This document shows positions 3,928 through 54,627 of a stretch of 64,000 bases of DNA, in pieces. Each line of letters begins with the position of its first letter. Positions within the stretch are counted from its first letter, which is position 1. A program made the translations under genes and the position numbers. The stretch comes from Sipunculus nudus (Eukaryota > Annelida > Sipuncula > Golfingiida > Sipunculidae): NCBI GenBank assembly GCA_026874595.1, contig CM049316.1, positions 66,984,676 to 67,048,675 of the forward strand, in the 5' to 3' direction. The notes beneath the pieces are model-generated. The model searched no databases. It saw nothing but the letters and a program-made list of their open reading frames with translations, and was not told where the DNA came from.

Positions 3928-3929
3928 TG

Positions 3930-4635: not shown

Positions 4636-4639
4636 GAGC

Positions 4640-16001: not shown

Positions 16002-16023
16002 TTGAAACGTGGCCACCAAACCT

Positions 16024-29760: not shown

Positions 29761-30440
29761 CACGCATGCGCAGTGGCACTTTGACGCAATCCAGCAACGC
29801 CATCCTGTGTCGAAATCTGCAACTCAGGTAGGCCAAGTGCCTCTATATTTAAATATTAAAACTAAATCTAGTTCACATCTTAAACTAGCAAAGCTTGCAA
29901 AAGTCTTTTTCCAGATTTAATAGGCTGATAATTCTGAAAACCGGGCTTGACATCGCTTAGAATAAAAATATGTCTTTCCCGGGTTGGCCATTCATTGTTC
30001 CGTGTTTAGCCGGGGCCGGCCATTTCTCAAAAAGTCTTTTCACTTTGAAGGAAATTTCCTGCAAAACCTCGCAGGAAATAGCGTAAATATCCAAAGGCTT
30101 TAACAATTGAGTACTGTAGTCGAGTTCAGGTGAGTAAATTCAGTGCTGACGTTGGCAGATTTGAACAGAAATCCTCTCGCAAATCGGGAAGGTTTATGGG
30201 CGCGTGTTTCCTCAACCTCAAGTTATGGCTGCCAAGTGGGGACAGGGGGCGCACGTTGAAATTGGCCATGGGGGCGCCAGTGCCGACATATTCACCAGTG
30301 ACACCTGGGGTCTTTTTATTGCACATCATTCTTCCCACCAAATGCTGCAACCCTGGACCGAAATCCCTAGGGGTCGGGAATTGGGCGATATGTGGCCCCT
30401 GGGTACGGGAATAGGGCGGCTTTCACAAAATGGCGGATAC
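29760..30440 (+). promoter_or_regulatory. CTCF: Putative CTCF promoter and non-coding first exon (copy A)
   Basis: CACGCATGCGCA at 29761-29772 matches the NRF1 consensus at 11 of 12 positions. GC and CpG content rise through 30000-30480 relative to flanks. A strong donor CAG|GTGAGT lies at 30129/30130 and could end a 5' UTR exon spliced to the acceptor at 51153, just before the CTCF ATG. AAAATGGCGGA at 30427-30437 resembles a YY1 site, common downstream of animal housekeeping promoters. The open frames here begin at non-ATG codons and look spurious. Assignment to CTCF is inference from order and orientation. Confidence 0.4.
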
Positions 30441-32975
30441 AGAGCCTTGCATTCGATCGACATGTTGGGTCACGCTGTCTGGCTCACACCATCATAGACA
30501 AATGGGTCGGTGTGGCTTCAGCCAGTTCCAATTTATTTTACTCAGTACATTTGTTGTGTTTTTATTTAAACTTATTTTTTTCTCTGAATAAAATAATATT
30601 ATTTTGTTTTAAAATATATTTAACCTATTTGTATATTATTTTAGTTTAGCTTCATGTGTCTAAGCCAGGCCAACAGACCCCCTGTTTTCTTTCCTCTTTA
30701 TTAAAATTAGAGAAAAGATTGTATTTTTCTATCATTGCATATTATTTCATATTATTTTTTTTTTTTAATATTTTTAAACACTGTCATATAGAGATATGTA
30801 GTTTTTTAAAATGAACCAGGCCAGCACAAAGACGTATATTGAACTGCTATATTGAACTCAGAAATTATAATATTTCATTTAATTTGTTAACCATTATCTG
30901 GTAAATTAAAAAATAAATCAGTATTTTAGAATTTGAGAATATAGTGTCATAGTCATTCTATATGAAAATAAATCTTTTCAATTACTAATAATATTGTAGA
31001 AATAATTTAACTAAGTAGAAACATTTCTGTTTAGTACATTTTTGTTTCATATTAGTTTTCTTGTTATTGAAAATATTCCAACTGGCCTTCCACCACTGAG
31101 ACTGCATTAGATTTGAAAATATTCACATTTCTGTTGTAAGTTGTATACAAATAGGAGATTCACACTAAGTAGATGTGACACTGACAGATCTAATAATTAA
31201 AGTTTAAACAACCACCAAGTTTTCACAGAACATTTCAAGTTGCATCATTTTTTTATATATATATATATATATATTAAAGGCAGTACCGCCTTATTTATCC
31301 TTTAAATTTTAATGTATGAGCTGTCACAATCTCCTACAAAGGCTCAATTAGGAACAGGTTTGGAGGTTTAAAATATTTTATCAATTTCTAGCTTGGTTGA
31401 CAAAATAATTTGATTTATATTTAATTTATAGATATAATACAATATTTTGAATGAAAAAGGCCATTTATTGTATCTTATTCTTCAATTTCAAAATTTAAAT
31501 GGTCACTGAAGTTTGTGAAATTTTGCAGGGATTATATATTTAAGTTAAATGTTAGTAAACCTTTTTTACCATCTTACACATGTTTAAAAGCAATCATAAG
31601 TCTGGCAAATAAATAAAAAAATAACATATATAATGTATGGCATTTTAATGCTGCACAGTCTTGTGTAAGTGGCGCAATATGGGATTCAGATTCTTTTTTT
31701 CATCTTGGATATAATTAAGTAGCCTATGTTGAGTTTGGTAGATGAGTAATTGAAAAATTGAAATTCCTAGATTGTGATGACATTCATGCTATCTTCATTT
31801 TGAACAGGATTTCAAATATTTAAAAGGTGACTGAGGAATACATTAAAATATCAAAACAATTATTCCTTGATTGTGATTACTTTCACACTATAGTTATTTA
31901 GAATGTAGCATTTCATTTTGAAAGATGGGCGACTCAACAAAAATAGTATAACCTAAAATTATGACAGCCAATGGCACCAATGGTTGCAATGGTTCTCTGG
32001 GATATGAGTCTAAGTGAGGAGTCCAAGCTAACTAGGGTCTAACAACAGTCTGTCTGTTATGCTGTATGTGCTTGGTGACCGCTGTTTGGCTGGTCATTTG
32101 CTTTTAGTTTTAAGTTTTGTTAAGTTTTCCACCTGTTACATGGTAACACACAATCCATTTTGTGAAATTTTATTCAGCAATATTACAGTAAATTGAAGTC
32201 AAGCTGAAAAAAAGTCAGAATTTTATTACCAAGCCTGTCTGGAAAGTCAACTTACATTATAATGAATTATGATTAATATTATGACTTTGTTGTTTTAATG
32301 TAATGATAGATTTTTTTCTATATTTTCACTAAACAGATTTATAAATAATAATCAGTATCCATTGGTCAACCAAATGAATTCAAAATTTTAGTTTTAAAAT
32401 TGTAGATGGATATTTAGGATAACTCAATGCTCATGGATGTAATTATTGGCAGGCCCTATAAAAAAAAAAGTATGGAACCTGGATGCAAACATTGCTGCTC
32501 TGGTCTTGCCATCAGTGCACTGTACCCGCTTGATCCGTTTGTCTCCAGGCACTACACCTGGTTAGATAAAGTTAAATTGGTATGTAGTGACCTTATAATC
32601 AAGGTCCAGGTCAAACGTTGGCCCGACCAAAGTCATTGCCTGCAAAATGGAAAAACAAGGTGCCCACTATAAATTTTCAGGTTTAAGTATTTTATATGAA
32701 AAGCAGTTGAATGGTACCATGAAAAAAGTGCTGGTTAAATTGAGATTGTAGGAAGGCTAGATTTCGCTGCATTATTTTATAAGATTTTGTTTTCAAACAT
32801 CCGTAATACTTTCAATTTTGGGAAACAGAGAGTGTACAGACATGATTTGATCACAGAAATCTTACATGTTTACTCTCAGGAGAAATTTGAGGAAATCAAA
32901 GAATTTCAGTTTCAGTAATATTTACTTATTTTTACCTCCATTCACTCATATTCTTGCATATATTAATATTATACT
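30440..32975. other. AT-rich intron/intergenic sequence (in both copies), no gene
   Basis: Low-complexity A/T-rich sequence with a (TA)n tract near 31253. The frame at 32427-32672 (81 codons) has no recognisable domain. Probably part of the first CTCF intron. Confidence 0.45.
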
Positions 32976-33462
32976 TGAAACCAGTTGGGCAATTCCACTG
33001 TGACGGACGTTACATTCAGAGAGACTTTTACCCATTTAAGTCACTCTCACAGTTAAAGCTGTCATTCAAGGAGCCTAAACTTATGTGTGTTAATAGCTCA
33101 GATCTGAGGCTGTATGATACAGGAAAGAAATGTGTCCAGATATATATGTGTCTTTCACCTACGACAAATGTCAGAATGTGACGGACGTTACATAAAAAAG
33201 ACACTGAAAAAATTCATCTGAATTTATTTCAAAATTCTCTGAATCTAAACAGTGGCACAAATTGATCTTTACCCCAGTATTAAAGGGGAACTATGTCACT
33301 TTATAAACAAATTAAAATATACCTTAAAATAATAGCCTGTTAGCAGGCAGCTTTAACACAGTTCAAAATTCTGTGTGACGGACGTTACGTGATGGACGTT
33401 ACATTTTGTCCAAAGGATGCAAGTGAAACTTCTATCAAAACTGTATTCTGAAAAAAAGGTTT

Positions 33463-33960
33463 AAGCACACTTTTTGATGACTTTGCCTTGTCTAGTAATT
33501 AATGTTTTGGATGCCAAGTTGGCATCTTCATCACAAACCTATCAAAATGATATATAAATTATATATTGCAAAGACTGCATTTAGAAGGTTTGTGATGAAG
33601 ATGCCAACATGGCATCCGAAACATTACTAGACATGGCAAAATCCCTTGTAATTCACAGGTTCACAATTTAATGCAGTAAAAAACACTAAATATCTAAGAA
33701 AATCCCAAATTTGAATGTCCTGATGATTCAAATCTGCTTTGAAGCATATTATACAAGGACAGCAAGGGAAAGACATCTCCAACCTAGTTTATGTTTAAGC
33801 ACACTTGTTGATGACTGCAGATTATTCAGTCTTTGCAATATATACATTTTATATCATTTTGATAAGTTTGTGATGAAGATGCAAACTTGGCATCCCATAA
33901 CATTACTTGATACTGCAAAATCCCTCGTAATTCACAGGTTCACAATTTAATACAGTAAAA
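33463..33960. repeat. Inverted and direct repeats inside the iteron element
   Basis: An inverted repeat pairs GGATGCCAAGTTGGCATCTT (near 33510) and CATCACAAACCT with AGGTTTGTGATGAAGATGCC (near 33586) and its continuation. The right arm and about 170 bp after it recur in direct orientation about 285 bp downstream (near 33870-33990), including AATTCACAGGTTCACAATTT and CCTGATGATTCAAA. Copy B carries the same at about +7685. Confidence 0.8.
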
Positions 33961-35389
33961 AACAACACTTAATATCTAAGAAATTCCAAAATTTGGATAT
34001 CCTGATGATTCAAACCAACTTAGAAGCCTATTACACATAGACAATAACAAACTAGATGACCAAGGTCGAGCGCTTGCCGGAAGTTGTAAGAGAAATAGGT
34101 GAAGGTCAGATTATTCTTTTAAATTATGTTTTATGAACAGGAGACTAAAATTAGCAACTGTTTATGTGGATGTGACCATTTATAAACAAATTATGAAGAA
34201 AATAAGCCACTGAGGTTTGTTTGTGGCCTTGACATTTGACCTTTGACCCAATTTTGAATAAAAAACAAGTTGGTCTGTTGTTAATAGATATTTACCGACG
34301 GTATAAGTTTCAGAGCGATTGCATTAAACTGTGGCCTGTACCAGATATAGAAATATTTGAATATTTCCAAGATCGATAAGTTTTACCCAAAATTAGGTCA
34401 ACATCAATATGTCAGAATATGGCCAAATCTCCACCGGAATAAGGCCATATTTTCTAATTTTCAGATGCAGTAATGAAAATTATTATAACATCATTTATAG
34501 TCTTTGAGATATGACACAATAATGATATATTGCAGTGTTGTCAGTGCAGCATTCCCTGGATGTCATATTACCGTAAAACATAAAATTATGAATGGCATAC
34601 TGTAAAGGAGCAAATGATAAAGTGAAATCAGAACCAGAATGGTATAAAAGTAAAAAAATTTAGTTAAACTAACCCCCCCCCTTCAAATTATCATTCATAA
34701 ACACAGCTGTCCCACCATTAAAACAAGGGAGCGTTGGGCCACATACAGATCTAAGCTGGAATTATCTATTTATAAGATTATAACTGCATAGAATCACAGA
34801 AGTTTGAAAAAAGGTTTAAGTTAATTTGTAAGGTCTGGTATATATATTTTCTATAAATAAACTTTACTGCTGGGAGGTGGATGGGGTTCAATCTTTATTT
34901 TCACACAGGCTGCATACCAACCATACAGGCCACTGAAAGCTACCATTTGATGCATCAGAATCTTAAATAATTGTGCAATACATGTACAGTAAATAATCTT
35001 TATTTCAACTATAGTCATGAGTTGTAAGCACCTCATGAAATATGAAACTTTTAATTTTGCTATTTTTCATAACCTTGTTTGCTTCTGTATAAGCAAATGT
35101 GGCTCAATCATAGAGCCAAGCTCTGACTTGGCCAAGTGCTTCTGTCAAATCTCTCATTTTCACACAAGTAACTGTAACCCATGGGTCATGACACTCAGCT
35201 GGTTGCCTGGTTGGTATTGGCTATAATGTGACACTAGATACATTTATGTGTTTGATACTGGTTTTCATAAGGATACTGTACAGAAGCCTGTTATTTATCA
35301 AAATAAGGTCATGCAATGAATCATGCCAGAAACTGATTAAACATTCGATGATCAATGTGTATGTCAAGAATCATGGTAATCAATGCATT

Positions 35390-35800
35390 AGTTATTCACA
35401 CACTGGAGCTTTTGTATCAATTTTTTTATATATACTTGGGGGGGGGGGGGGGTTATTACGAGCCCCTATAGCTTGGAGAATATGGGTAATAGAGACCTAA
35501 TTTCAAATTTTCAAGGAGGTTTTTCATGGAACTCCTGGATGTAAAGTTAAAATATTCTAGATCCAACAGTGACTATTTGTGTCCTGTAAAAAGATGACTG
35601 CTTCTATTGAAGGTCTCAAAAATAGAGCCTTCAGTGCATTACTTATTCAGATACTGGAGCTATTGTATCAAAATTTTAATTATTTGGGGGGGGGGGAGGA
35701 ACTAACAAGCCCTATAGCTTGTAGGACCTAATTTCAGGTTTCCAAGGAGTTTCCAGGTCCAGCCATAATGATTTGTGCCCTGCTAACAGCCAGACGGTAT
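35390..35800. repeat. Diverged direct repeat of about 256 bp with G-runs
   Basis: CACACTGGAGCTTTTGTATCAA with a G-run (13 G in copy A, 14 in copy B near 43123) and CCTATAGCTTG recurs as AGATACTGGAGCTATTGTATC, a second G-run and CCCTATAGCTTG. The second unit ends in the GTGCCCTGCTAACAGCC repeat also seen at 834-876. Confidence 0.75.
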
Positions 35801-35976
35801 GACGAAGGTTGACGGTCAAAGACCCATCACTACAGCTCAGTTGATTTTCTGTCAGCTGAGCTAGAAACCTTTATTGTGACTAACCTGATATCTTATAATA
35901 ATTTGCTATTCAATATTTATTCACTTAATTATTCAGCAGAGGTTACTGGATACATACCTTACTGTACACTCTTTAC

Positions 35977-36022
35977 ACAGCGCTTTACCTATAGGCCTGC
36001 TACCTATATCGTAAGCGCTGTT
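35977..36022. repeat. Imperfect inverted repeat
   Basis: ACAGCGCTTTAC and GTAAGCGCTGT flank a 22-bp centre with partial pairing. Duplicated near 43662 in copy B. Confidence 0.6.
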
Positions 36023-37466
36023 TGTTTTGACCTCGTATTCTGAATCGCTACACTAGAGGGGAGCACTGTATTTTGGTCCGATCAGATGAAACCCTGTGCT
36101 GGAAGACACAACCTCTATGGTTGGCTGATATGGTCCCATGATTAATAAATAGCAAATATAAATGCTGTTGGCAATTTTTTAGGGGTTGAAGAGGTCATTG
36201 TGTAAGAGCTATACCACAAACTTATTCAATAAATAGTTGTGGTCCTCTTCACTGCGTGTAAACAATTGGGATGCCCGATATGCGACACACAACTGATGCG
36301 ACAAGGTATCTACATAACTATAAGGCAGTGTTGCCAGCAAAGACGGTTAACCAGCCAGTTGAAGTATACACGAAGCAACTGTTGTTTTATTTGTCTTGAG
36401 TGACAGCTCATCGCCCTAGCAACCGTTTGAGCAGGCCACAGTCTGTACGTGGCACAGGGTCAGACAGAATGGCCCAACACGTGGTTTGCACTCGTCCGTG
36501 AATGTGCACATAGGATGCCCCGCCGGTGAGCTGTAATTCAAACCAAATTTTACAACACTGGCTACGTTTTGCTGGCAAATGGATACATGGTTACGCTAAC
36601 ATAGTCTTAATGTCATAATTGACCAGTTGATGATGCAACAAAGCAGAGGGAGCAATTCAAATTAGACTATTTTTACTTGAGTGCACCTAAGCGCACTTGA
36701 AGTGCAGCTATTGGCAGAGCCATGATGCCTGTCGAGTGTTTGTTAACTGGCATTTGGTTGGCTGCAAGACAAGGACACACCTCCTGGTGTATCATAAACG
36801 GTCACACCCAGCAGCAGGAAAATTTCTGCTGCCTCGGGAGGGTAACCTTACTGAGAATGCGGCTGTTTCACTAAAAATCATGAAATATAAAAAGTTGTCT
36901 TCTTGACCTTGGAAATGACAGGAAGTACCAGTGCATTGTGGGTAAATTTTGCCATGCTGCAGCTCCACCTATATTTGATTTAAGGAACTATCCTTTGTTC
37001 TAGAAAATTGAAAGAGGATAAAACAGCTGATGATTTCTTGATTCTTTGGGTGCGTGACGGATGTTACAAGACCCCAATTTTCCCGTGACGGACGTTACAT
37101 GTGACGGACATTACAGTTTTTTATCGCCTGCTGTATCAAACTTGTCATACTTTCCAGCAGACTCTTAATATTATTCACCTTCTCTTGACAAGACCTAAGA
37201 AAATTAAAAAGGTTATTTCAGAATTCTATCTAATTTTTCTACAATAAAAATAGTTTGACATTAATGTGACGGACGTTACATGACCCATGAAGATAAAAGT
37301 CACCCCTGACTTTCTGACCAGTCACTTCAACAGTTGGGCTGAAGCTTCTTTCTGCCTAAAATTCATTCTCTAGTGATTACAAAGTGAATGATATGAAGAG
37401 TAATACCCATTTAGTTTCTAGAAAATAAAGGAGTTCATTATAACCTGTTTTTGAGCAAATTTCATT

Positions 37467-37475
37467 TTCAAATTT
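37467..37475. other. Nine-base filler at the tandem duplication junction
   Basis: TTCAAATTT lies between the end of copy A and the start of copy B and is absent from the corresponding position at 45153 and from 29783-29791. Its CAAATTT resembles the adjacent GCAAATTTCA, so it may be a templated insertion. Confidence 0.6.
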
Positions 37476-40400
37476 CAGCAACGCCATCCTGTGTCGAAAT
37501 CTGCAACTCAGGTAGGCCAAGTGCCTCTATATTTAAATATTAAAACTAAATCTAGTTCACATCTTAAACTAGCAAAGCTTGCAAAAGTCTTTTTCCAGAT
37601 TTAATAGGCTGATAATTCTGAAAACCGGGCTTGACATCGCTTAGAATAAAAATATGTCTTTCCCGGGTTGGCCATTCATTGTTCCGTGTTTAGCCGGGGC
37701 CGGCCATTTCTCAAAAAGTCTTTTCACTTTGAAGGAAATTTCCTGCAAAACCTCGCAGGAAATAGCGTAAATATCCAAAGGCTTTAACAATTGAGTACTG
37801 TAGTCGAGTTCAGGTGAGTAAATTCAGTGCTGACGTTGGCAGATTTGAACAGAAATCCTCTCGCAAATCGGGAAGGTTTACGGGCGCGTGTTTCCTCAAC
37901 CTCAAGTTATGGCTGCCAAGTGGGGACAGGGGGCGCACGTTGAAATTGGCCATGGGGGCGCCAGTGCCGACATATTCACCAGTGACACCTGGGGTCTTTT
38001 TATTGCACATCATTCTTCCCACCAAATGCTGCAACCCTGGACCGAAATCCCTAGGGGTCGGGAATTGGGCGATATGTGGCCCCTGGGTACGGGAATAGGG
38101 CGGCTTTCACAAAATGGCGGATACAGAGCCTTGCATTCGATCGACATGTTGGGTCACGCTGTCTGGCTCACACCATCATAGACAAATGGGTCGGTGTGGC
38201 TTCAGCCAGTTCCAATTTATTTTACTCAGTACATTTGTTGTGTTTTTATTTAAACTTATTTTTTTCTCTGAATAAAATAATATTATTTTGTTTTAAAATA
38301 TATTTAACCTATTTGTATATTATTTTAGTTTAGCTTCATGTGTCTAAGCCAGGCCAACAGACCCCCTGTTTTCTTTCCTCTTTATTAAAATTAGAGAAAA
38401 GATTGTATTTTTCTATCATTGCATATTATTTCATATTATTTTTTTTTTTTAATATTTTTAAACACTGTCATATAGAGATATGTAGTTTTTTAAAATGAAC
38501 CAGGCCAGCACAAAGACGTATATTGAACTGCTATATTGAACTCAGAAATTATAATATTTCATTTAATTTGTTAACCATTATCTGGTAAATTAAAAAATAA
38601 ATCAGTATTTTAGAATTTGAGAATATAGTGTCATAGTCATTCTATATGAAAATAAATCTTTTCAATTACTAATAATATTGTAGAAATAATTTAACTAAGT
38701 AGAAACATTTCTGTTTAGTACATTTTTGTTTCATATTAGTTTTCTTGTTATTGAAAATATTCCAACTGGCCTTCCACCACTGAGACTGCATTAGATTTGA
38801 AAATATTCACATTTCTGTTGTAAGTTGTATACAAATAGGAGATTCACACTAAGTAGATGTGACACTGACAGATCTAATAATTAAAGTTTAAACAACCACC
38901 AAGTTTTCACAGAACATTTCAAGTTGCATCATTTTTTTATATATATATATATATATATTAAAGGCAGTACCGCCTTATTTATCCTTTAAATTTTAATGTA
39001 TGAGCTGTCACAATCTCCTACAAAGGCTCAATTAGGAACAGGTTTGGAGGTTTAAAATATTTTATCAATTTCTAGCTTGGTTGACAAAATAATTTGATTT
39101 ATATTTAATTTATAGATATAATACAATATTTTGAATGAAAAAGGCCATTTATTGTATCTTATTCTTCAATTTCAAAATTTAAATGGTCACTGAAGTTTGT
39201 GAAATTTTGCAGGGATTATATATTTAAGTTAAATGTTAGTAAACCTTTTTTACCATCTTACACATGTTTAAAAGCAATCATAAGTCTGGCAAATAAATAA
39301 AAAAATAACATATATAATGTATGGCATTTTAATGCTGCACAGTCTTGTGTAAGTGGCGCAATATGGGATTCAGATTCTTTTTTTCATCTTGGATATAATT
39401 AAGTAGCCTATGTTGAGTTTGGTAGATGAGTAATTGAAAAATTGAAATTCCTAGATTGTGATGACATTCATGCTATCTTCATTTTGAACAGGATTTCAAA
39501 TATTTAAAAGGTGACTGAGGAATACATTAAAATATCAAAACAATTATTCCTTGATTGTGATTACTTTCACACTATAGTTATTTAGAATGTAGCATTTCAT
39601 TTTGAAAGATGGGCGACTCAACAAAAATAGTATAACCTAAAATTATGACAGCCAATGGCACCAATGGTTGCAATGGTTCTCTGGGATATGAGTCTAAGTG
39701 AGGAGTCCAAGCTAACTAGGGTCTAACAACAGTCTGTCTGTTATGCTGTATGTGCTTGGTGACCGCTGTTTGGCTGGTCATTTGCTTTTAGTTTTAAGTT
39801 TTGTTAAGTTTTCCACCTGTTACATGGTAACACACAATCCATTTTGTGAAATTTTATTCAGCAATATTACAGTAAATTGAAGTCAAGCTGAAAAAAAAGT
39901 CAGAATTTTATTACCAAGCCTGTCTGGAAAGTCAACTTACATTATAATGAATTATGATTAATATTATGACTTTGTTGTTTTAATGTAATGATAGATTTTT
40001 TTCTATATTTTCACTAAACAGATTTATAAATAATAATCAGTATCCATTGGTCAACCAAATGAATTCAAAATTTTAGTTTTAAAATTGTAGATGGATATTT
40101 AGGATAACTCAATGCTCATGGATGTAATTATTGGCAGGCCCTATAAAAAAAAAAGTATGGAACCTGGATGCAAACATTGCTGCTCTGGTCTTGCCATCAG
40201 TGCACTGTACCCGCTTGATCCGTTTGTCTCCAGGCACTACACCTGGTTAGATAAAGTTAAATTGGTATGTAGTGACCTTATAATCAAGGTCCAGGTCAAA
40301 CGTTGGCCCGACCAAAGTCATTGCCTGCAAAATGGAAAAACAAGGTGCCCACTATAAATTTTCAGGTTTAAGTATTTTATATGAAAAGCAGTTGAATGGT

Positions 40401-43400
40401 ACCATGAAAAAAGTGCTGGTTAAATTGAGATTGTAGGAAGGCTAGATTTCGCTGCATTATTTTATAAGATTTTGTTTTCAAACATCCGTAATACTTTCAA
40501 TTTTGGGAAACAGAGAGTGTACAGACATGATTTGATCACAGAAATCTTACATGTTTACTCTCAGGAGAAATTTGAGGAAATCAAAGAATTTCAGTTTCAG
40601 TAATATTTACTTATTTTTACCTCCATTCACTCATATTCTTGCATATATTAATATTATACTTGAAACCAGTTGGGCAATTCCACTGTGACGGACGTTACAT
40701 TCAGAGAGACTTTTACCCATTTAAGTCACTCTCACAGTTAAAGCTGTCATTCAAGGAGCCTAAACTTATGTGTGTTAATAGCTCAGATCTGAGGCTGTAT
40801 GATACAGGAAAGAAATGTGTCCAGATATATATGTGTCTTTCACCTACGACAAATGTCAGAATGTGACGGACGTTACATAAAAAAGACACTGAAAAAATTC
40901 ATCTGAATTTATTTCAAAATTCTCTGAATCTAAACAGTGGCACAAATTGATCTTTACCCCAGTATTAAAGGGGAACTATGTCACTTTATAAACAAATTAA
41001 AATATACCTTAAAATAATAGCCTGTTAGCAGGCAGCTTTAACACAGTTCAAAATTCTGTGTGACGGACGTTACGTGATGGACGTTACATTTTGTCCAAAG
41101 GATGCAAGTGAAACTTCTATCAAAACTGTATTCTGAAAAAAAGGTTTAAGCACACTTTTTGATGACTTTGCCTTGTCTAGTAATTAATGTTTTGGATGCC
41201 AAGTTGGCATCTTCATCACAAACCTATCAAAATGATATATAAATTATATATTGCAAAGACTGCATTTAGAAGGTTTGTGATGAAGATGCCAACATGGCAT
41301 CCGAAACATTACTAGACATGGCAAAATCCCTTGTAATTCACAGGTTCACAATTTAATGCAGTAAAAAACACTAAATATCTAAGAAAATCCCAAATTTGAA
41401 TGTCCTGATGATTCAAATCTGCTTTGAAGCATATTATACAAGGACAGCAAGGGAAAGACATCTCCAACCTAGTTTATGTTTAAGCACACTTGTTGATGAC
41501 TGCAGATTATTCAGTCTTTGCAATATATACATTTTATATCATTTTGATAAGTTTGTGATGAAGATGCAAACTTGGCATCCCATAACATTACTTGATACTG
41601 CAAAATCCCTCGTAATTCACAGGTTCACAATTTAATACAGTAAAAAACAACACTTAATATCTAAGAAATTCCAAAATTTGGATATCCTGATGATTCAAAC
41701 CAACTTAGAAGCCTATTACACATAGACAATAACAAACTAGATGACCAAGGTCGAGCGCTTGCCGGAAGTTGTAAGAGAAATAGGTGAAGGTCAGATTATT
41801 CTTTTAAATTATGTTTTATGAACAGGAGACTAAAATTAGCAACTGTTTATGTGGATGTGACCATTTATAAACAAATTATGAAGAAAATAAGCCACTGAGG
41901 TTTGTTTGTGGCCTTGACATTTGACCTTTGACCCAATTTTGAATAAAAAACAAGTTGGTCTGTTGTTAATAGATATTTACCGACGGTATAAGTTTCAGAG
42001 CGATTGCATTAAACTGTGGCCTGTACCAGATATAGAAATATTTGAATATTTCCAAGATCGATAAGTTTTACCCAAAATTAGGTCAACATCAATATGTCAG
42101 AATATGGCCAAATCTCCACCGGAATAAGGCCATATTTTCTAATTTTCAGATGCAGTAATGAAAATTATTATAACATCATTTATAGTCTTTGAGATATGAC
42201 ACAATAATGATATATTGCAGTGTTGTCAGTGCAGCATTCCCTGGATGTCATATTACCGTAAAACATAAAATTATGAATGGCATACTGTAAAGGAGCAAAT
42301 GATAAAGTGAAATCAGAACCAGAATGGTATAAAAGTAAAAAAATTTAGTTAAACTAACCCCCCCCCTTCAAATTATCATTCATAAACACAGCTGTCCCAC
42401 CATTAAAACAAGGGAGCGTTGGGCCACATACAGATCTAAGCTGGAATTATCTATTTATAAGATTATAACTGCATAGAATCACAGAAGTTTGAAAAAAGGT
42501 TTAAGTTAATTTGTAAGGTCTGGTATATATATTTTCTATAAATAAACTTTACTGCTGGGAGGTGGATGGGGTTCAATCTTTATTTTCACACAGGCTGCAT
42601 ACCAACCATACAGGCCACTGAAAGCTACCATTTGATGCATCAGAATCTTAAATAATTGTGCAATACATGTACAGTAAATAATCTTTATTTCAACTATAGT
42701 CATGAGTTGTAAGCACCTCATGAAATATGAAACTTTTAATTTTGCTATTTTTCATAACCTTGTTTGCTTCTGTATAAGCAAATGTGGCTCAATCATAGAG
42801 CCAAGCTCTGACTTGGCCAAGTGCTTCTGTCAAATCTCTCATTTTCACACAAGTAACTGTAACCCATGGGTCATGACACTCAGCTGGTTGCCTGGTTGGT
42901 ATTGGCTATAATGTGACACTAGATACATTTATGTGTTTGATACTGGTTTTCATAAGGATACTGTACAGAAGCCTGTTATTTATCAAAATAAGGTCATGCA
43001 ATGAATCATGCCAGAAACTGATTAAACATTCGATGATCAATGTGTATGTCAAGAATCATGGTAATCAATGCATTAGTTATTCACACACTGGAGCTTTTGT
43101 ATCAATTTTTTTATATATACTTGGGGGGGGGGGGGGGGTTATTACGAGCCCCTATAGCTTGGAGAATATGGGTAATAGAGACCTAATTTCAAATTTTCAA
43201 GGAGGTTTTTCATGGAACTCCTGGATGTAAAGTTAAAATATTCTAGATCCAACAGTGACTATTTGTGTCCTGTAAAAAGATGACTGCTTCTATTGAAGGT
43301 CTCAAAAATAGAGCCTTCAGTGCATTACTTATTCAGATACTGGAGCTATTGTATCAAAATTTTAATTATTTGGGGGGGGGGGAGGAACTAACAAGCCCTA

Positions 43401-45152
43401 TAGCTTGTAGGACCTAATTTCAGGTTTCCAAGGAGTTTCCAGGTCCAGCCATAATGATTTGTGCCCTGCTAACAGCCAGACGGTATGACGAAGATTGACG
43501 GTCAAAGACCCATCACTACAGCTCAGTTGATTTTCTGTCAGCTGAGCTAGAAACCTTTATTGTGACTAACCTGATATCTTATAATAATTTGCTATTCAAT
43601 ATTTATTCACTTAATTATTCAGCAGAGGTTACTGGATACATACCTTACTGTACACTCTTTACACAGCGCTTTACCTATAGGCCTGCTACCTATATCGTAA
43701 GCGCTGTTTGTTTTGACCTCGTATTCTGAATCGCTACACTAGAGGGGAGCACTGTATTTTGGTCCGATCAGATGAAACCCTGTGCTGGAAGACACAACCT
43801 CTATGGTTGGCTGATATGGTCCCATGATTAATAAATAGCAAATATAAATGCTGTTGGCAATTTTTTAGGGGTTGAAGAGGTCATTGTGTAAGAGCTATAC
43901 CACAAACTTATTCAATAAATAGTTGTGGTCCTCTTCACTGCGTGTAAACAATTGGGATGCCCGATATGCGACACACAACTGATGCGACAAGGTATCTACA
44001 TAACTATAAGGCAGTGTTGCCAGCAAAGACGGTTAACCAGCCAGTTGAAGTATACACGAAGCAACTGTTGTTTTATTTGTCTTGAGTGACAGCTCATCGC
44101 CCTAGCAACCGTTTGAGCAGGCCACAGTCTGTACGTGGCACAGGGTCAGACAGAATGGCCCAACACGTGGTTTGCACTCGTCCGTGAATGTGCACATAGG
44201 ATGCCCCGCCGGTGAGCTGTAATTCAAACCAAATTTTACAACACTGGCTACGTTTTGCTGGCAAATGGATACATGGTTACGCTAACATAGTCTTAATGTC
44301 ATAATTGACCAGTTGATGATGCAACAAAGCAGAGGGAGCAATTCAAATTAGACTATTTTTACTTGAGTGCACCTAAGCGCACTTGAAGTGCAGCTATTGG
44401 CAGAGCCATGATGCCTGTCGAGTGTTTGTTAACTGGCATTTGGTTGGCTGCAAGACAAGGACACACCTCCTGGTGTATCATAAACGGTCACACCCAGCAG
44501 CAGGAAAATTTCTGCTGCCTCGGGAGGGTAACCTTACTGAGAATGCGGCTGTTTCACTAAAAATCATGAAATATAAAAAGTTGTCTTCTTGACCTTGGAA
44601 ATGACAGGAAGTACCAGTGCATTGTGGGTAAATTTTGCCATGCTGCAGCTCCACCTATATTTGATTTAAGGAACTATCCTTTGTTCTAGAAAATTGAAAG
44701 AGGATAAAACAGCTGATGATTTCTTGATTCTTTGGGTGCGTGACGGATGTTACAAGACCCCAATTTTCCCGTGACGGACGTTACATGTGACGGACATTAC
44801 AGTTTTTTATCGCCTGCTGTATCAAACTTGTCATACTTTCCAGCAGACTCTTAATATTATTCACCTTCTCTTGACAAGACCTAAGAAAATTAAAAAGGTT
44901 ATTTCAGAATTCTATCTAATTTTTCTACAATAAAAATAGTTTGACATTAATGTGACGGACGTTACATGACCCATGAAGATAAAAGTCACCCCTGACTTTC
45001 TGACCAGTCACTTCAACAGTTGGGCTGAAGCTTCTTTCTGCCTAAAATTCATTCTCTAGTGATTACAAAGTGAATGATATGAAGAGTAATACCCATTTAG
45101 TTTCTAGAAAATAAAGGAGTTCATTATAACCTGTTTTTGAGCAAATTTCATT
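37476..45152. repeat. 7.68-kb tandem duplication, copy B
   Basis: Direct repeat of 29792-37466. Beyond 45152 the sequence is unique and continues the iteron element to its right TIR, so the right breakpoint of the duplication lies inside that element. Confidence 0.98.
37634..38124 (+). promoter_or_regulatory. CTCF: Duplicate of putative CTCF first exon and donor (copy B)
   Basis: The donor CAG|GTGAGT at 37813/37814 and the YY1-like AAAATGGCGGA at 38111-38121 are duplicated. The NRF1-like site at 29761 is outside the duplicated unit, so copy B lacks it. If functional, it would be an alternative first exon. Confidence 0.35.
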
Positions 45153-45334
45153 GTTAAATTTAGCCATTTTTACGGGTGCAAAATTCTTGCAGACAGAGTA
45201 TGTTTCAACCATAAATTTATTTAGTTTCATAAAGTTAGGGGTCATATGGTCAGATTAAAGCCCTTTGCTGGATGCAAAACACAAATTAATTTTTTGCTCA
45301 TCATGTCCCTATTTTCATGGAATTGCCCAGTTGG
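40666..45334 (+). mobile_element. Iteron-bearing TIR element, complete copy B
   Basis: Left TIR CCAGTTGGGCAATTCCA (40666-40682) and right TIR TGGAATTGCCCAGTTGG (45318-45334) match at 15 of 17 positions in inverse orientation. Eight direct GTGACGGACGTTACAT-type motifs start at 40685, 40863, 41060, 41074, 44740, 44771, 44787 and 44952, four near each end. The last motif is 366 bp from the right TIR. Target duplication is not evident. No protein-coding gene is recognised in its 4.67 kb. Confidence 0.7.
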
Positions 45335-45339
45335 GCCCC

Positions 45340-45760
45340 CACTTATTTTCAGGAAATTTTACTATGATCCCTTCTCATTCTTGTTTCATAATTTTTTTTT
45401 TTTTATATTTGTCTGCAAACTGGAAATTACTTGTGATTTTTAGGTTTGATTGACTTGTTGTGACTTGAAGTGTCAGTAGTTTACAAAAAAAAAATATTGA
45501 AATTGGAACCCTGTAATATAAAAACAATTACTTAATTTGTGTATTGATTACTCCAATCATTGAATGTCCCCAATTCTGTAATGACAAGTTTGGAAATAAA
45601 CCTCTGTAAGATGGTGGAGGTATTGTGTTTTTGATACGGTTAGTTGGTTAGTTAGGAACTTACTAGCTTAACTCCTAAAATACTTGAGAGACAAAATTTT
45701 GAAAATCTTTTGGAACATTCATGAACTGCCATATAAGATAGCCATGTTCACCATTATTAT
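45340..45760. other. Spacer between the two iteron elements, no gene
   Basis: AT-rich with a poly-T near 45392 and a poly-A near 45485. The overlapping frames at 45246-45453 cross the right TIR and are spurious. Confidence 0.45.
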
Positions 45761-45911
45761 ATAACTGGGCCTTTCCACTGTGACTCGGATTACATTTTTA
45801 CTTGGTTCCCCTGTTTATTGTGCTATTAAACTAAGTGTAATTCATTTAAGTTAATCTTTTATCAGCTGACAGTTACTGAGATTGACCATAAAAAATAAAA
45901 GCCAAACAAAT

Positions 45912-45999
45912 GTTTTGATAAAACGTATTAATTGAACATACACAGCTAAAAGTGTGTTTTGATAAAACATATTAATTGAACATACACAGCTAAAAGTGT
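45912..45999. repeat. 44-bp tandem duplication in element C
   Basis: GTTTTGATAAAAC(G/A)TATTA and its continuation through CACAGCTAAAAGTGT occurs at 45912 and 45956. Removing one copy makes the first iteron spacing 174 bp, close to 178 bp in copies A and B. Confidence 0.9.
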
Positions 46000-47108
46000 G
46001 ACTCGCGTTACATTCTAGGGACATCTGTAATCTCCATATCTTTTCTGTTTCAATTTCTCCTCAGATTATGAACAATAAAAAAAGATAACTTGTCTAGTTG
46101 ATTTTGTCACATATTCAGCTGCAAGAACATATAAGATTGTAATCAGCTGTTTGCTTAATTTTAAAGAAAAATTTCTTAATGTGTGTGACTCATGTTACCG
46201 TGACTCGCGTTACAGAGTGTCCTTTCTATATCTCCAGTTTCAAAATTCAACTTCTAAAGGTACCAAACTTATTTATGATGCCAACCAGGTGAACTTTTGT
46301 AAAGATGAAAACAATAATTATTGTAAACAGTTTAACATGGATTATAATACTGATTTATCAAGCTGTAAGTGGTAATTCATACTTTCCAATAACACACCTG
46401 CTTTATTCAAAATTCATGCTTAGAGCTGACTCAGTTGAAAAGATTGGAAATAGATGCAGTGAGAACACCTTATTAGACATTTCATTATCATGTCATCATC
46501 ACTGATTTATTTATTGACAAATAACTTGTGAAATTATTTAGAGAAAATATTATGAGATATCAGCAATCATTACATGAAATAATATTAAATGATGTACACA
46601 GGGTACAAACAGACAATTTTACTGGTCAAACACATAGAAAATAATGTTATTTTACACAAAGTAATTCAAAAACATGTGAGGTTTTGCAATAAAAAATGAA
46701 GAAAGACTCCCTGCCAAACGATATAAATTGTTCTAAGTGTAAAAGCTGGTTATATTTAAGAATCCTCAAAGTTGAAGTGGCCTCGGTTATTAACAGTGAA
46801 TTGTGGTCTCAACAGGTTAAGTTCTTGTTTTAAATAAAAGATATCATCTGGATTTGTTTGCCATTTCAGTTTTAACCAATTGGCACCGTCACAGACTCTT
46901 GGTATTCCTCAGACTCCATTTATATCACCTCTCAAGGATACACAATTTCATCATAATCTTTGCAGCACCAGTCCCCTACTGAGATACAGTGTAGGTAATG
47001 ATCAAATGCATTAGTAGCATCTGCGGTGTGACATCACTGGATTTTGAAATATACACCTTAATTATTACAAAATTTTTACCTTATAATTCAAATTTACACA
47101 GACTCAAA

Positions 47109-48362
47109 CAGGGTTGGGTTTTATCCGGATAAAACTTGTTTAATCCAGGACATTGGATAAAACTGGGTTTTGTCCGGTTTAATCCAGTTTTATCTGGATA
47201 ATACAGAATTAAACTGGATTAAACTAAGAATCACCCTTTAAAATTTAATTAAATTAACAAAAATGATAATCTGGATAATTAAGTTCAGAAGGTTTATTAA
47301 TATATTAACATTATATAAGTTTTATAGCCAATTGGCAATTTCCTCCAGGTTCATGTTTCACTGTTGTCAGCATCCACTATTAGCTTATGCTCAACACACG
47401 AGATTGACGAGCTGTCCCTTTGTCTTTAATGTTACTTTTCTGGCTGGTAGTCAGTTTCCCAATAGGATATATCATCCTTATTGCATCATCCTCGATCAGC
47501 CATCAAATATATACTCATAGTGACAGTGCAAGCTTATAGGGTGACTTTTGTAGCCCAAACTAATTATAGAGACTCTATGGAGGTGGATGCCTGAATGACT
47601 TTGATCCAATGGAGGTATTTTCCTCTCAGGCTGTCATGACTGGATGAATGTGAAATGGTAGCTCACTGTGGCAGCTTGTATAAACATGCCTTTCCAGTGG
47701 TCAAGTACTACACTACAACCCAAAATTCAGAGAAACCAACTTGGGCAAGATAGCTTTTCAAGTATTTATCCCTTGCTTTTGAAAGGTCTTCCCCACAAAA
47801 TTATTGACATAGTGACTGATGTCACTGTATATATTAAGTCATTTAAGCAATAAATGAGTTGCTTATGTACATCTCTCTCAGATGTAAGAATAGATGCTTA
47901 TCTGTGTATATATGGTATTCTATAGTACAACTGATTGTGGAGTTAAACTAAACATGTGTGAACTGCAGTTGTTTAGCTTTCTTATAGTGTAATGTAAAAA
48001 ATATGTGATTATGCTTTAATAAGTCATACTTGAACTGACCTCGCTTCAGAAGAGAAATAATTTAAAGTTTCAAAATTATTATTAAAATCATGGTATGACT
48101 ATCTTTGACAAAAACAATGAGTTTTTTGTATAAATATATAGTCCCATAATAATTCAGTTGACTAGACATAAATTTTCCTTATAAGAACTGTATTTTTTTA
48201 CAGTGGAAAGCTAAACTTAATATAAAATGTCTACTTCACAGACAGTATACACCCAAATTTCGGATAAAACTGGATAAAACCTGTTTTATCTGATCCGGAT
48301 TTACTGGATTTATCCAGTGGGTTAAACAGACTGCGGATAAAATGATTAAACTGCCAACCCTG
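47109..48362. mobile_element. hAT-type element inside iteron element C
   Basis: Begins CAGGGTTGGGTTTTATCC and ends ACTGCCAACCCTG. GACTCAAA is duplicated exactly at 47101-47108 and 48363-48370. Subterminal GGATAAAAC and GGTTTTATCC-type repeats cluster at both ends. No transposase; 1.25 kb, non-autonomous. Confidence 0.92.
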
Positions 48363-48744
48363 GACTCAAACAATCCTCATGACTGATTTAAAAATGTTCC
48401 TCAGCCTGCTTTACTGTATATTTTACATGTGTTAACAATTTACCTCTTATCAATATTCATGTAAAAGGCTATTAATATTTTCTTGTAAATATAAATTATT
48501 TATATATATAAGACCTGCACTTCTCCATGTGTTTTCAGTTAAACCAGGGTGGATTCACCATGTTATTAAGATTTTAGTACATTATGTTATTTTTATAGGA
48601 AATAGCCGTCGGACACCTTCATGTATATCAGAATCCATATACTAATGTTACATGTCTGTTTTCCACATATTTATATAAAACACGTTTGTGGTAAAAACAT
48701 AACATTCTAAAAGTTTTACTACATTTCTGACAAAGATTTTTTAG

Positions 48745-48865
48745 TTCAGGTGACTTAAAGGAGCTATAGAAATGGTCCTTTGTTTGTTGTCCGGCCGGAC
48801 ATCAGTTATCAAGGCATGTACTGAAACTGTTGGACCTACGAATCCAAAATTCTACATGTATACTG
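48745..48865. repeat. Dispersed repeat (GTTGGACCTACGAATC family), copy 1
   Basis: GGTGACTTAAAGGAGCTATAG, a TCCTTTGTTTGTTGTCCG block and TTGGACCTACGAATCCAAAATT match in order with 57415-57565. Confidence 0.65.
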
Positions 48866-49969
48866 TAATGTAGTTAAATATCCAAAAGTTCTTCTACCCA
48901 ACTTAAAGCTTTTAATATCGTCAAATAACAAAATTTCCTCTCAGATTTTCAAATGCTGATATATATATATATATATATATACAAGTACAATTTACATTTG
49001 CTAAAGTTTTACAGAGTTCAGCTGTGCGCCATAACACACGGGTCCATCTCTGGTTGCAAATCTCTGGTTGCAAATACCTTCAGTCTGGATTTAAATTCAG
49101 ATTTCATTTGCAAAACTTGGATTTGAATTTTTAACAGGATATCAAGAGCATTAATGGATTGATGTTTAGGTGTTGCCCCTATGCAATGAGTCAAGGACTC
49201 ATTAATAATATATGATAAGAGCTAAATTAATCATATCAAATTAAATTTATCATAATAAAAAGACTGGACCAAGCTGTTGTTCTCTTTGAAAGTCAGACAT
49301 ATATCTATTACAGTAACTTATTTTATAATGAAAATGATAGCTCACCCTGTAATGCACCAGCTTAATTTTAGCGTGACTCGCGTTACATTACCCCATCCTT
49401 TGTGACTCACGTTACATGTGATTCGCGTTACCAGTGTTTAGTTTGCTGTTTCACACCAAAAGGAGCTGTGACACTTGAATAGTTGGTACCATCAAATGAG
49501 AATTAAAAGTCTGGAGGAAACTTTTAAACAGCCTCTTCAACTTGTAACGTATAGAAAGTATAGAGAAAATTCACTGTTTTTGTTACTCGCGTTATATCTT
49601 CATTGATGCTCATGGTAAGGAGAGGGTTCATAAAAATTTTCAATGAGAGAAGGAATTTTAACCATTGCACAATGTAAAGTCATATGTTCATATTATGGCT
49701 GCAGTATGGAAGCCTTTGAAATATTTAATTAACAGGAGATATAATCAGGATAAATTTGTGCTTTTATGACCCAAAAATAGCAGTTTACACTTATGTCACT
49801 TATACTTTGTGACAGTGAAAGAGTTTAGAGAGAAACCACATTTAATTATTATATTCCAGAAACTTCAAGACACATGCTATCATCAAAAGTACAACTTTTC
49901 TAAATTTAACACATTTAATTTTTTTCAACTTTGTCCCTCAAATCATGGAAATGCCCAACTTGTTATTCT

Positions 49970-51159: not shown

Positions 51160-54054
51160 ATGGAAGGTCAAGGTCAGGCAGGGCCCGCTGGAGGGCCCTT
51201 GCAGGACATTCAGAGCTATCTGACAGATTTCAATAAAGAAATCGCGGATAACGGGAGTCAGCAACAGTTTCAGGCTGCTGAGGCACCTGCCGAGCAGTCA
51301 GACCTGTATGATGTCGCTCTCACCGAACCAACTACTGGCGGGAATCAGATCAACGGGGAACAAGAAATTCAGGAAGAGCAAACTCAAGAAACTGTGACAG
51401 TTTCACAAATTCAAGAGACACAGATTGTTGTTCCAGAGAGTCAGGAAGCCACGCAGGACATGTCACAAGTTACCACTGTCCCAGAGACACAGGAGATACC
51501 ACAAGGGCAAGACGAAACTCAGTCAGATGTGCAGATATCAGTAGAAGGAACTCTGGTGGAACAGCATATTGTGACCTCAGAAACTGGTCAAGTTCTTGCA
51601 CAGGTTGCTTCAGAAAGTCATGGGGCTGCCGTGGTGCTTGGTGACCTAGGAGTACAGCAGTTAGCAGTACAGTCTGCAGCTGGTCAGACACAACAGCAAG
51701 TACAAGTAGAACAAGCCATGAGCCAGCCAGAAATTGTCCATCTGCAACAGCCTGAACAGCAGGTGTTAGATGCTGGTTTGGCTGGACAAGTCCACCTGGT
51801 CAACGCCAACCAAACAATACCGCAGACGATTGTTATCCAACAACCAGTTGTGGAGAATATTGTACAACATCATACACTGGAGGGGCAGGATATTGCCCAG
51901 GTAGCAGCTGCTGTAAGCCAGACAATGCCAGCACTGCAGGGGGCGCAGGTAGTCACTGACCAGCAGATGCAGATGCAAATGCAGCAGACTGAGCAAGGTA
52001 CAATCTACATACAGCAGGAGGTGCCAGGGCAGCAGGCTACGGAATACGTCACCCAAGCAGCTCTGGGCCAGCAAGGTATTACTGTAGTGTCCCTGCCACA
52101 GGGTATGTCAGTAAGCCAGAGTAACGCTGCAATATTGGACGCAGTAGCGCAGCACACTGTTGGTGTACCGGTTCCACATGAGCACACACAGCTAGTGACC
52201 GTATCCCAGGTAGCTCACCATCATGTACCAGAACAGCAGCAGGAGCTAGTTGATACTGAAACACCAGAAACACAGCAAGTAACTGTATCAGTAACGGAGA
52301 CAACCTTACCACAGCCTGTAGTGAAAGATCCTCAAGTAGCCCTGAAAACTACAACAGGGCAGCAAAAAGATTCTGTGCAGGCATCCTTGGAACCGATACA
52401 AATCAAACCGCAAGATTCTGAGAAGGCCGAGAGGGAGACAACTAAGGCAGAGGTCCTGGCACAGATAAGTGTGCAAAACACAGAGGAAGAGCAAGAAGAA
52501 GAAGATGCTGTGAAGCAGAAACAAGAGAAGACCACGCAGGAAGAGGAGCAACAACCTGCACAGGCTGAGGAGGGAACTGATGAGCAGCAAGCAGAGGAAG
52601 AAGGGGAGGAGGCTGCTGAAGAAGAAGCTCCTCAAGAAGGCCAAGGAGATGGGCAGAATTTCCAGACTGTCACGTTGGTGCCATCTGATGTAAATCAGGG
52701 TGGAGAGGTCAGCTATGTGCTTATTGTCTCTCAGGGTGAAGATGGCGATAAGGGAGATGGTAAGATGGATATGTCTGTGTATGACTTCAAGGAAGAAGGT
52801 AGAATTATCACCACTGAAGAACAGACAACAACAGATGCACAGGGCAGGAAGATCATCAAAGTAACGCCCAAAAAGAATCCTCAGACAAGCAGTGGGCAGT
52901 TGATGTGTAACTACTGTAATTACACCAGCACCAAGCGATACTTGCTGACTCGGCACATGAAGACCCATTCTGAGGAACGACCTCACAAGTGTAACATTTG
53001 TGACCGTGCGTTTAAAACAATTGTGTCGCTCACCAATCACATAAACACCCACACTGGCACTCGCCCACACAGGTGCAAGGAATGTGACGCAGCTTTTACA
53101 ACCTCTGGTGAGTTAGTGCGTCATGTTCGCTACCGCCATACTTTTGAGAAACCTCATAAATGCCCCGAGTGTGACTATTCCAGCGTTGAACTGAGCAAGT
53201 TGAAACGCCACATCAGATCACACACCGGCGAACGCCCATACCAGTGCCCGCATTGTTCCTACGCAAGCCCTGACACCTACAAACTGAAGCGCCATCTGCG
53301 GGTCCACACAGGAGAAAAGCCTTATGAATGTGAATTCTGTCATGCCCGATTCACTCAGAGCAATAGCCTCAAAGCTCACAAGCTGATCCATAGTGGATCC
53401 AAGCCTGTCTACCAGTGTGAGCTTTGTCCCACCACATGTGGTCGCAAGACAGATCTTAAGATCCATATTCAGAAACTCCATACAAGTGACAAACCATTGA
53501 TGTGCAAAAAATGTGGTAAATCTTTCCCCGATCGCTATACATACAAGCTTCATGTAAAGACCCACGAGGGAGAAAAATGTTTCCGCTGCGAGCTGTGTCC
53601 CTACGCAGCCCTCTCACAGCGCCACCTGGAGAGCCATATCCTCACTCATACAGGTGAGAAGCCATTCCAGTGTAACGAATGTGACCAGTCATTCCGTCAG
53701 AAGCAGCTCCTGAAACGTCACAAGAATCTGTACCACACTCCCGATTACGTTCCACCGGCTCCAAAAGATAAAGCGTACGAGTGCACCGAGTGTCAGAAGA
53801 CGTTTGCCCATAAGGGTAACTTGCTTCGTCATCTCATGCACCATGACCCTGATCTCCAGCTCAGCAAAGAAATGTTAGACTCCAGCCTCCAGGAGGTTAT
53901 CATCACTGATAACACGGATCAAAACACGATACTGGTGTCACAGGCAGATGATACGCCAAGAACAATTTCTACTACCACGGTCCGTAGACGTGCAAAGACT
54001 GGCCCAGCCACAACAGCCTTGGAAATACCAGTCCAGACTGTACAGCTGGTGCAA
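51160..54054 (+). CDS. CTCF: CTCF, main coding exon: N-terminus and all 11 zinc fingers
   Basis: The exon starts after TTTACTTTCTAG at 51153; ATG at 51160 is the first in-frame. 965 codons to the donor at 54055 (CAA|GTGGGT, phase 0). Residues 1-540 are Gln/Glu/Val-rich, with an acidic block near 425-510. YDF occurs at 541-543. Eleven C2H2 fingers run from Cys583 to His895 with CTCF signatures: TSGELVRH in finger 3, SKLKRHIRSHTGERP in 4, DTYKLKRH in 5, FTQSNSLKAH in 6 and RQKQLL with a YVP linker in 10. CTCF is a nuclear DNA-binding protein that blocks cohesin loop extrusion and insulates enhancers. Human CTCF is 727 aa with fingers from about 266, so the N-terminus here is roughly twice as long. 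Confidence 0.97.
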
Positions 54055-54627
54055 GTGGGTGCATTTAACTCTTTCTATTTGATCACAGTTTTGTATATAA
54101 CCACTCAATTCTTGTTGCTATGAAGCAAGAGCTATCAGCTTCCTGTGGCTGTCCATAAACATATATATAGCAACCGTATGATGCCAAGATGAATATTATA
54201 TGCAGTGTTAGCATATATGTAGACCAAATAATGATTAAATATTCTTATATATTGCTGTGCTAACATTTGATCGAGGATATAATGTAACGTTCCATGTTTA
54301 AACAATAGTTCATTAATACATTATTCATTATTATAGCCCTGGTCTGTAAGTTAAACCAAGATGGTATAATATTATAATATTTCACCAAGTTTTTATGAAA
54401 GCCTACAGATTGGCCATTCTCCAATATAATTTTTGCAGAACACAAACTTAAGAAATACACCCTTTAATCATATAATTTACAAGCCAGAGCTGTTAAATTG
54501 GTAAAAATAATGACATGAATATTAAATTTGTCATAAATGATTAGTACTCGTCCATTTTGTTTTGTAGTAAATAAGTTAATGTGGAAATTCTTCTTAACAT
54601 ATCTTTATTTAATTTATTTTCTCTCAG
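54055..54627. other. CTCF: CTCF intron after the zinc-finger exon
   Basis: GT at 54055 and ACAG-type acceptor (TTTTCTCTCAG) at 54627. Reading through the donor would add 22 codons ending FLLL and a stop at 54121-54123, a possible intron-retention form lacking the tail. Confidence 0.8.

Follow-up and report, generated by a model that had tools for sequence, protein, structure and literature searches.

Dispersed transposon families in Sipunculus nudus carry a recurrent array of subterminal motifs whose cores differ between families

A 64,000-bp stretch of the Sipunculus nudus genome (assembly GCA_026874595.1, contig CM049316.1, positions 66,984,676 to 67,048,675, forward strand; hereafter the window, on contig C11 in our numbering) holds two neighbouring, diverged elements, B and C, each with eight copies of a short motif arranged as four plus four near its ends. 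What are these elements, and what reads the array? Searching the 1.43-Gb genome, we found that B and C inserted separately and belong to two families of non-autonomous cut-and-paste transposons whose copies are dispersed. Sequence comparisons suggest that these are quite probably sister families moved in trans by a Sola-like transposase of the DDD (triple-aspartate) type, with the eight motifs as its likely binding sites.

The repeated unit is a 14-bp motif, GTGAC-N4-GTTAC, in which two half-sites flank a 4-bp core. The pattern GTGACNNNNGTTAC occurs 17 times in the window, always on the plus strand and always within B, C or a partial copy of B termed A, compared with 0.05 times on average, and never more than 2, in 100 dinucleotide shuffles. 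With any core allowed, five motifs depart from GTGACNNNNGTTAC: two of the eight in B, by a single mismatch, and three of the eight in C, by one, one and two mismatches. An earlier description of this DNA from its letters alone (the sequence-only reading) had given the motif as 16 bp. The motif stands, with a constant part of 14 bp; between them, A, B and C contain only 11 exact copies of the 16-mer that ends in AT. Motif starts reproduce the spacings given there (178/197/14 and 31/16/165 bp in B; 174+44/187/15 and 29/16/164 bp in C). The 44 bp reflect a duplication that is indeed present but private to the window copy, as motif 2 lies at 185–192 in all 16 other C left ends. The motifs of B and C do share one strand, which had been regarded as unusual, but this orientation is less telling because GTNAC is a palindrome and reverse-complementing the 14-mer leaves 8 of its 10 half-site positions unchanged. 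A scan at 2 mismatches reports identical 14-mer sites on both strands, and orientation is mixed among the right-end sites of L086, a more distant relative considered below.

The elements were correctly recognised at 40666–45334 and 45763–49962, but these limits included the target site duplications (TSDs), removal of which gives the ends listed in Table 1. Genome match rows include split pieces of single copies, and their counts are given as lower bounds. The left 500 bp of B returned at least 28 rows, those of A and B among them, and in 20 rows the identity is 94–100%; the right end of B returned at least 34, and the two ends of C at least 24 and at least 21. Exact 4-bp TSDs flank 17 of the 19 B-family copies with both ends, abutting GGGCAATTCC and GGAATTGCCC, and 12 of the 16 paired C-family copies. 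Dispersed copies with 11-bp terminal inverted repeats (TIRs) and 4-bp TSDs bear out the description of both as short-TIR elements, demonstrate the mobility of the two families and, for the B family, place that mobility in the recent past. Of 31 TSDs (29 tabulated copies plus B and C), 20 begin with A and 24 end with T, an AT-rich tendency and not a rule.

Pattern searches for the paired motifs and TIRs, which the sequence-only reading had proposed as a check, gave a consistent picture. The TIR followed by motif 1, at up to 2 mismatches, yielded 47 genome hits, and the adjacent-pair pattern 68, compared with none for either reversed control. All but four of the 68 pairs lie inside copies found by the end searches and the TIR plus motif 1 search; the four others comprise two at C6:77.86 Mb and one each at C16:39953654 and C16:39976979. 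At C6:77856381–77856457, two pairs of GTGACATCAGTTAC-type sites are separated by 18 bp within each pair and 45 bp between pairs. By contrast, the bare 14-mer is not enriched genome-wide (1492+1282 hits versus 2011+2112 for its reversed control). Because a lone 14-mer is no commoner than its reversed control, the array rather than the single motif is the mark of these elements.

This array is retained across copies. Among 27 B-family loci, including A and B, 25 have all four left sites when up to 3 mismatches are allowed; the remaining two are partial. In 17 of the 25 left ends the sites lie at 13, 191, 386–388 and 400–402, and in the other eight (the C1:85.38 copy and seven of a cluster on C16) some of the inner ones have moved by up to 35 bp. 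For the C family, counted at up to 4 mismatches, 14 of 16 left ends have four sites (13, 185–192, 352–381 and 367–396) and two have the first two sites alone. All four right sites are present in the 12 C right ends examined, at 572–590, 543–561, 527–545 and 361–378 from the end. A third family, with the core TCAT, has left offsets of 13/193/379/403.

The C16 cluster (C16:52915852–53473082) contains seven B-family left ends at 85–92% identity and one C-family copy. Three of these left ends share one left flank and two share another, indicating that the cluster was partly spread by segmental duplication. Separately, a satellite at C1:24191382–24196358 consists of 197-bp units, each of three 66-bp repeats, and most units contain GTGACGGACGTTAC once. 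Its period equals the spacing of B sites 2 and 3, which we take for a coincidence, as the satellite and B have only the 14-mer region in common.

The two parts of the motif behave differently. As the comparison copy for the C family we used that at C16:53.47, which is without the 44-bp duplication. Between B and this copy, half-sites agree at 77 of 80 positions and the core at 7 of 32, the chance level; with the C of the window, the corresponding values are 74/80 and 7/32. The five segments outside the sites are near chance (z 0.9 to 2.5 against shuffles), and the four bounded by sites or a TIR have lengths of 164/164, 183/172, 151/152 and 350/349 bp in B and the C16:53.47 copy. B and the TCAT family (copy L108) likewise agree at 76/80 half-site and 9/32 core positions, with segment z from −0.5 to 3.0. 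Together with the recurring offsets, these values support the earlier observation that motifs and spacing were kept while the intervening DNA diverged. Within each family the core hardly varies; from family to family it differs. An exception is C-family site 3 (window 46185), which has a position-specific core, TCAT in most copies, the other sites having TCGC or nearly so.

A long relative encoding a transposase, which the sequence-only reading had suggested looking for, was found in more than one family. L083, a copy of the TCAT kind, contains protein pieces with the strings DFSENY, SDG and HGKGPVDGIGG. A genome search with this protein identified relatives within L084, a 6.4-kb B-family copy on C12, and L085, a C-family copy on C2. 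In all three copies the gene is antisense to the orientation of B, and the pieces belong to one transposase family, which has at least 71 genome match rows, several with open frames of 700–970 codons. L084 has all eight sites, one at 3 mismatches; L083 and L085 each have four left sites, one of those in L085 being weak (4 mismatches). B aligns to L084 piecewise, within 1–1440, at 1603–2979 and at 3860–4657. As the transposase-bearing stretch of L084 is absent from B, B is an internal-deletion derivative. The longest stop-free stretches, none of them transposase-like, are 117 codons in B, 98 in C and 124 in the hybrid copy L061. C holds a likely remnant of the transposase C terminus, comprising two stretches of 37 and 29 amino acids at 41% identity (tblastn, E 4.7e-5).

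Three aspartates, D388, D474 and D515 in L086 numbering, are invariant in four long open frames, along with a set of Cys/His residues, and also occur in the pieces of L083 and L084. From this pattern we infer a putative catalytic DDD-like triad. No relatives of the transposase were confirmed in viral contigs, prokaryote genome contigs or plasmids, and a literature search with its peptide strings returned no paper.

More distant relatives extend the comparison. L086, on C2, has an open 734-aa frame, the TIR GGGGCATTTCAC and eight copies of GTCACGGACRGGAC. Started at GGGC, its TIR has no TSD; started one base earlier, at GGGGC, it is flanked by ATAA on both sides. Its catalytic region is 36–45% identical to the B-family piece, and its left offsets are 23/192/380/403, compared with 13/193/379/403 in the TCAT family. 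The exact L086 14-mer has 45 genome hits versus 18 for the reversed control, and repeats the L086 spacing of 169/188/23 at C17:5720356–5720749; a copy at C16:40261555 has 185/23. In L087, a variant motif lies at 177/342/510/529 from an end that matches the right end of L086 (179/345/512/531 counted alike); six sites were found, and the other end was not. L106 is more distant still, with the TIR GGGTATTTCTAC, nine sites of the CTCGACACCGTTAC type and the TSD ATAT, which is weak evidence because it lies inside an AT repeat. A left-end ruler is thus common to the B, C, TCAT and L086 groups, and its support stops there. On the best reading of these comparisons, left-end site geometry would outlast the sequence of the motif, and the transposase may read layout as well as letters.

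With the array, its recurrence and the coding relatives established, we propose the following sequence of events. A DDD-type transposase whose family is spread through the genome would move B and C in trans, binding, perhaps as a multimer, to the near-palindromic 14-mers. The 11-bp TIR would mark the cut, and the four sites of each end, single sites about 165–200 bp apart plus one adjacent pair, would build the synaptic complex. The adjacent pair could nucleate a higher-order complex, and the sites 165–200 bp apart would be drawn together, perhaps around a nucleosome. Only then would the TIR be cut, and the excised element would be joined to an AT-rich target with a stagger of 4 bp. With half-sites common to the sister families, the core could act as a family-specific identity mark.

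Table 1 Features of elements A, B and C in the window, with positions counted from its first letter.
Feature	Position	Strand	Sequence or basis
A, copy of B, right end lost at duplication breakpoint	32987..37479	+	99.9% identity over 7690 bp
Left TSD of B	40668..40671	.	AGTT; same letters at 45329-45332
Element B, 4657 bp, non-autonomous, internal-deletion derivative	40672..45328	+	TIR GGGCAATTCCA / TGGAATTGCCC; piecewise alignment to L084
Left TIR of B, 11 bp	40672..40682	+	GGGCAATTCCA, paired with TGGAATTGCCC; genome pattern search
B motif 1	40685..40698	+	GTGACGGACGTTAC
B motif 2	40863..40876	+	GTGACGGACGTTAC
B motif 3, paired with motif 4	41060..41073	+	GTGACGGACGTTAC
B motif 4	41074..41087	+	GTGATGGACGTTAC
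B motif 5	44740..44753	+	GTGACGGATGTTAC
B motif 6, paired with motif 7	44771..44784	+	GTGACGGACGTTAC
B motif 7	44787..44800	+	GTGACGGACATTAC
B motif 8	44952..44965	+	GTGACGGACGTTAC
Right TIR of B	45318..45328	-	TGGAATTGCCC; inverted partner of left TIR
Right TSD of B	45329..45332	.	AGTT; same letters at 40668-40671
Left TSD of C	45763..45766	.	AACT; same letters at 49957-49960
Element C, 4190 bp, non-autonomous	45767..49956	+	Ends GGGCCTTTCCA / TGGAAATGCCC; C-family matches in genome
C motif 1	45780..45793	+	GTGACTCGGATTAC
C motif 2	45998..46011	+	GTGACTCGCGTTAC
C motif 3, paired with motif 4	46185..46198	+	GTGACTCATGTTAC
C motif 4	46200..46213	+	GTGACTCGCGTTAC
Likely transposase C-terminal remnant in C	46783..46985	-	tblastn, L084 C-terminal piece as query
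C motif 5	49373..49386	+	GTGACTCGCGTTAC
C motif 6, paired with motif 7	49402..49415	+	GTGACTCACGTTAC
C motif 7	49418..49431	+	GTGATTCGCGTTAC
C motif 8	49582..49595	+	GTTACTCGCGTTAT
Right TSD of C	49957..49960	.	AACT; same letters at 45763-45766

A had been taken for a third, truncated element. It is instead a second copy of the B insertion, produced by a 7.69-kb tandem duplication whose two halves are 99.9% identical (window 29792–37479 versus 37476–45164). The breakpoint of this duplication, which is either recent or an assembly effect, cuts off the right end of A. The window also contains a 987-aa open reading frame (ORF) rich in C2H2 zinc fingers directly after C (51160–54123, plus strand) and a 327-aa ORF resembling a rhodopsin-like G-protein-coupled receptor (15036–16019, minus strand).

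Several observations weigh against the proposed mechanism. The spacers retain weak residual similarity (z up to 3.0), and the C and TCAT families agree at 18 of 32 core positions, since TCGC and TCAT have two letters in common; freedom of the core therefore does not extend to every pair of families. In L082 and L108, TCAT copies that have flanking letters in common and may not be independent insertions, motif 8 lies about 200 bp farther from the right TIR, so that this distance may not be strict. Exact TSDs are missing from two of the 19 B copies, both in the C16 cluster and one base off, and from four of the 16 C copies (three without a recognisable right end, one two bases off). The transposase genes of L083, L084 and L085 contain stops or frame shifts, recognisable right sites number only two in L083 and one in L085, and no B, C or TCAT family member with an open transposase frame was found among the candidates scored in the genome searches for relatives (150 of 577 and 150 of 436). 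The right end of L086 has sites at 545/526/359/193 in mixed orientation, unlike B and C, and the nine sites of L106 are arranged differently. Sequence searches of Pfam, NCBIfam and PDB with the transposase found nothing significant.

To which superfamily, then, does this transposase belong? The sequence-only reading had matched the layout to none. Coding relatives, a DDD-like pattern and AT-rich 4-bp TSDs answer that in part, as they fit descriptions of Sola. Sola was reportedly defined by Bao and colleagues in 2009. In the available portions of the published accounts, Sola elements have a DDD transposase, 4-bp TSDs and TIRs of 11–1124 bp, most being 2–9 kb long (PMC10741241), and Sola2 has AT-rich TSDs such as AWWT, ATAT, AAAT and ATTT (PMC3627910). 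The TSDs here are alike in length (17/19 in B, 12/16 in C, ATAA in L086 and, weakly, ATAT in L106) and in their AT-rich tendency, the 11-bp TIR of B (GGGCAATTCCA) sits at the lower limit for Sola, and the three invariant aspartates of the four open frames may correspond to its DDD triad. The transposons are therefore most likely Sola-like and of the DDD type, a comparison made with printed descriptions and without a sequence match.

Ginger, Chapaev and some Academ elements also have 4-bp TSDs. A transposase from another such superfamily, or from no named one, is a serious alternative that we nevertheless hold to be somewhat unlikely: no profile matches the protein and the Sola comparison is by description only, whereas TSD length, DDD-like pattern, element size and TIR length fit what is accessible of the Sola account (PMC10741241), and the AT-rich TSDs fit Sola2 cases in the consulted part of theirs (PMC3627910).

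Other placements fare worse. piggyBac and Kolobok target TTAA and were ruled out by the varied 4-mers found here; Helitrons, which have neither TSD nor TIR, were ruled out by the presence of both. hAT elements have 8-bp TSDs and a different TIR, and no hAT profile match to the transposase was found. B does resemble a Ds-type internal-deletion derivative with subterminal sites, as far as the available text on Ac/Ds goes (PMC3260210). En/Spm (CACTA) elements come close in organisation, with short repeated sites inside each end, a family-specific motif and non-autonomous deletion derivatives, all features that B and C share, to judge from the accessible part of the source (PMC2613891). Membership is ruled out by the GGGC terminus and 4-bp TSD, as opposed to a CACTA TIR and 3-bp TSD. 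In the same partial source, a soybean CACTA element has repeats in both orientations, 4 of them in a 159-bp stretch and 24 in one of 732 bp (PMC2613891), unlike the four plus four sites at long fixed distances seen here. The literature searched, which covered few subscription papers and some texts in part, holds no printed account of a fixed subterminal site array in Sola, and within it the end architecture appears to be undescribed.

A bolder extension of the proposed mechanism is that the left end is read by geometry first. A ruler of about 13–23, 192, 380 and 403 bp would be kept between transposase groups whose catalytic regions are only 36–45% identical, perhaps set by nucleosome wrapping, and the site letters rewritten between families: the core between sisters and a whole half-site between more distant groups. 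We regard this as tentative and rather doubtful; the 18/32 agreement of the C and TCAT cores weakens it.

The motifs could instead be sites for a host protein (a zinc-finger, bZIP or chromatin protein) that serve expression or chromatin placement, with the transposase reading the TIRs alone. Single sites at roughly nucleosome spacing and the large zinc-finger ORF adjoining C would suit this idea. However, a single motif would be expected throughout if a host factor were the reader, and here the half-sites persist from family to family but the core changes; in a more distant family, a different motif occupies almost identical left offsets. The bare motif lacks genome-wide enrichment. We therefore consider a host reader improbable. 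Still less probable is a division of labour in which the DDD protein cuts and another DNA-binding protein encoded by the transposon reads the motifs, as with TNPA of En/Spm in the available description of that system (PMC2613891): L086, L087, L105 and L106 each have one long ORF, the next longest listed being at most 176 aa, a survey of single-frame ORFs that leaves room for multi-exon proteins. Finally, the sequence-only reading had tied a lack of further copies, or unkept spacing, to an old local duplication with chance conservation. A and B are indeed a local tandem duplication, but for B and C this idea is refuted: copies of both families are scattered over many contigs, each family with TSDs of its own and with the layout unchanged.

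A transposase reading both the TIRs and the subterminal array would bear on two poorly known matters: how the ends of large short-TIR transposons are assembled, and what keeps the transposase of one family from mobilising copies of a related one. If true, a ruler combined with a password would make a two-part end code of a kind that the literature searched does not describe for a eukaryotic transposon. The Sipunculus nudus elements form a natural data set, with sister families that have the same half-sites, nearly the same distances, different cores and recent copies at 97–100% identity. More distant relatives, in which a transposase frame of 734 aa is open, add to it, and predictions on core swaps and on the ruler are testable with short DNAs.

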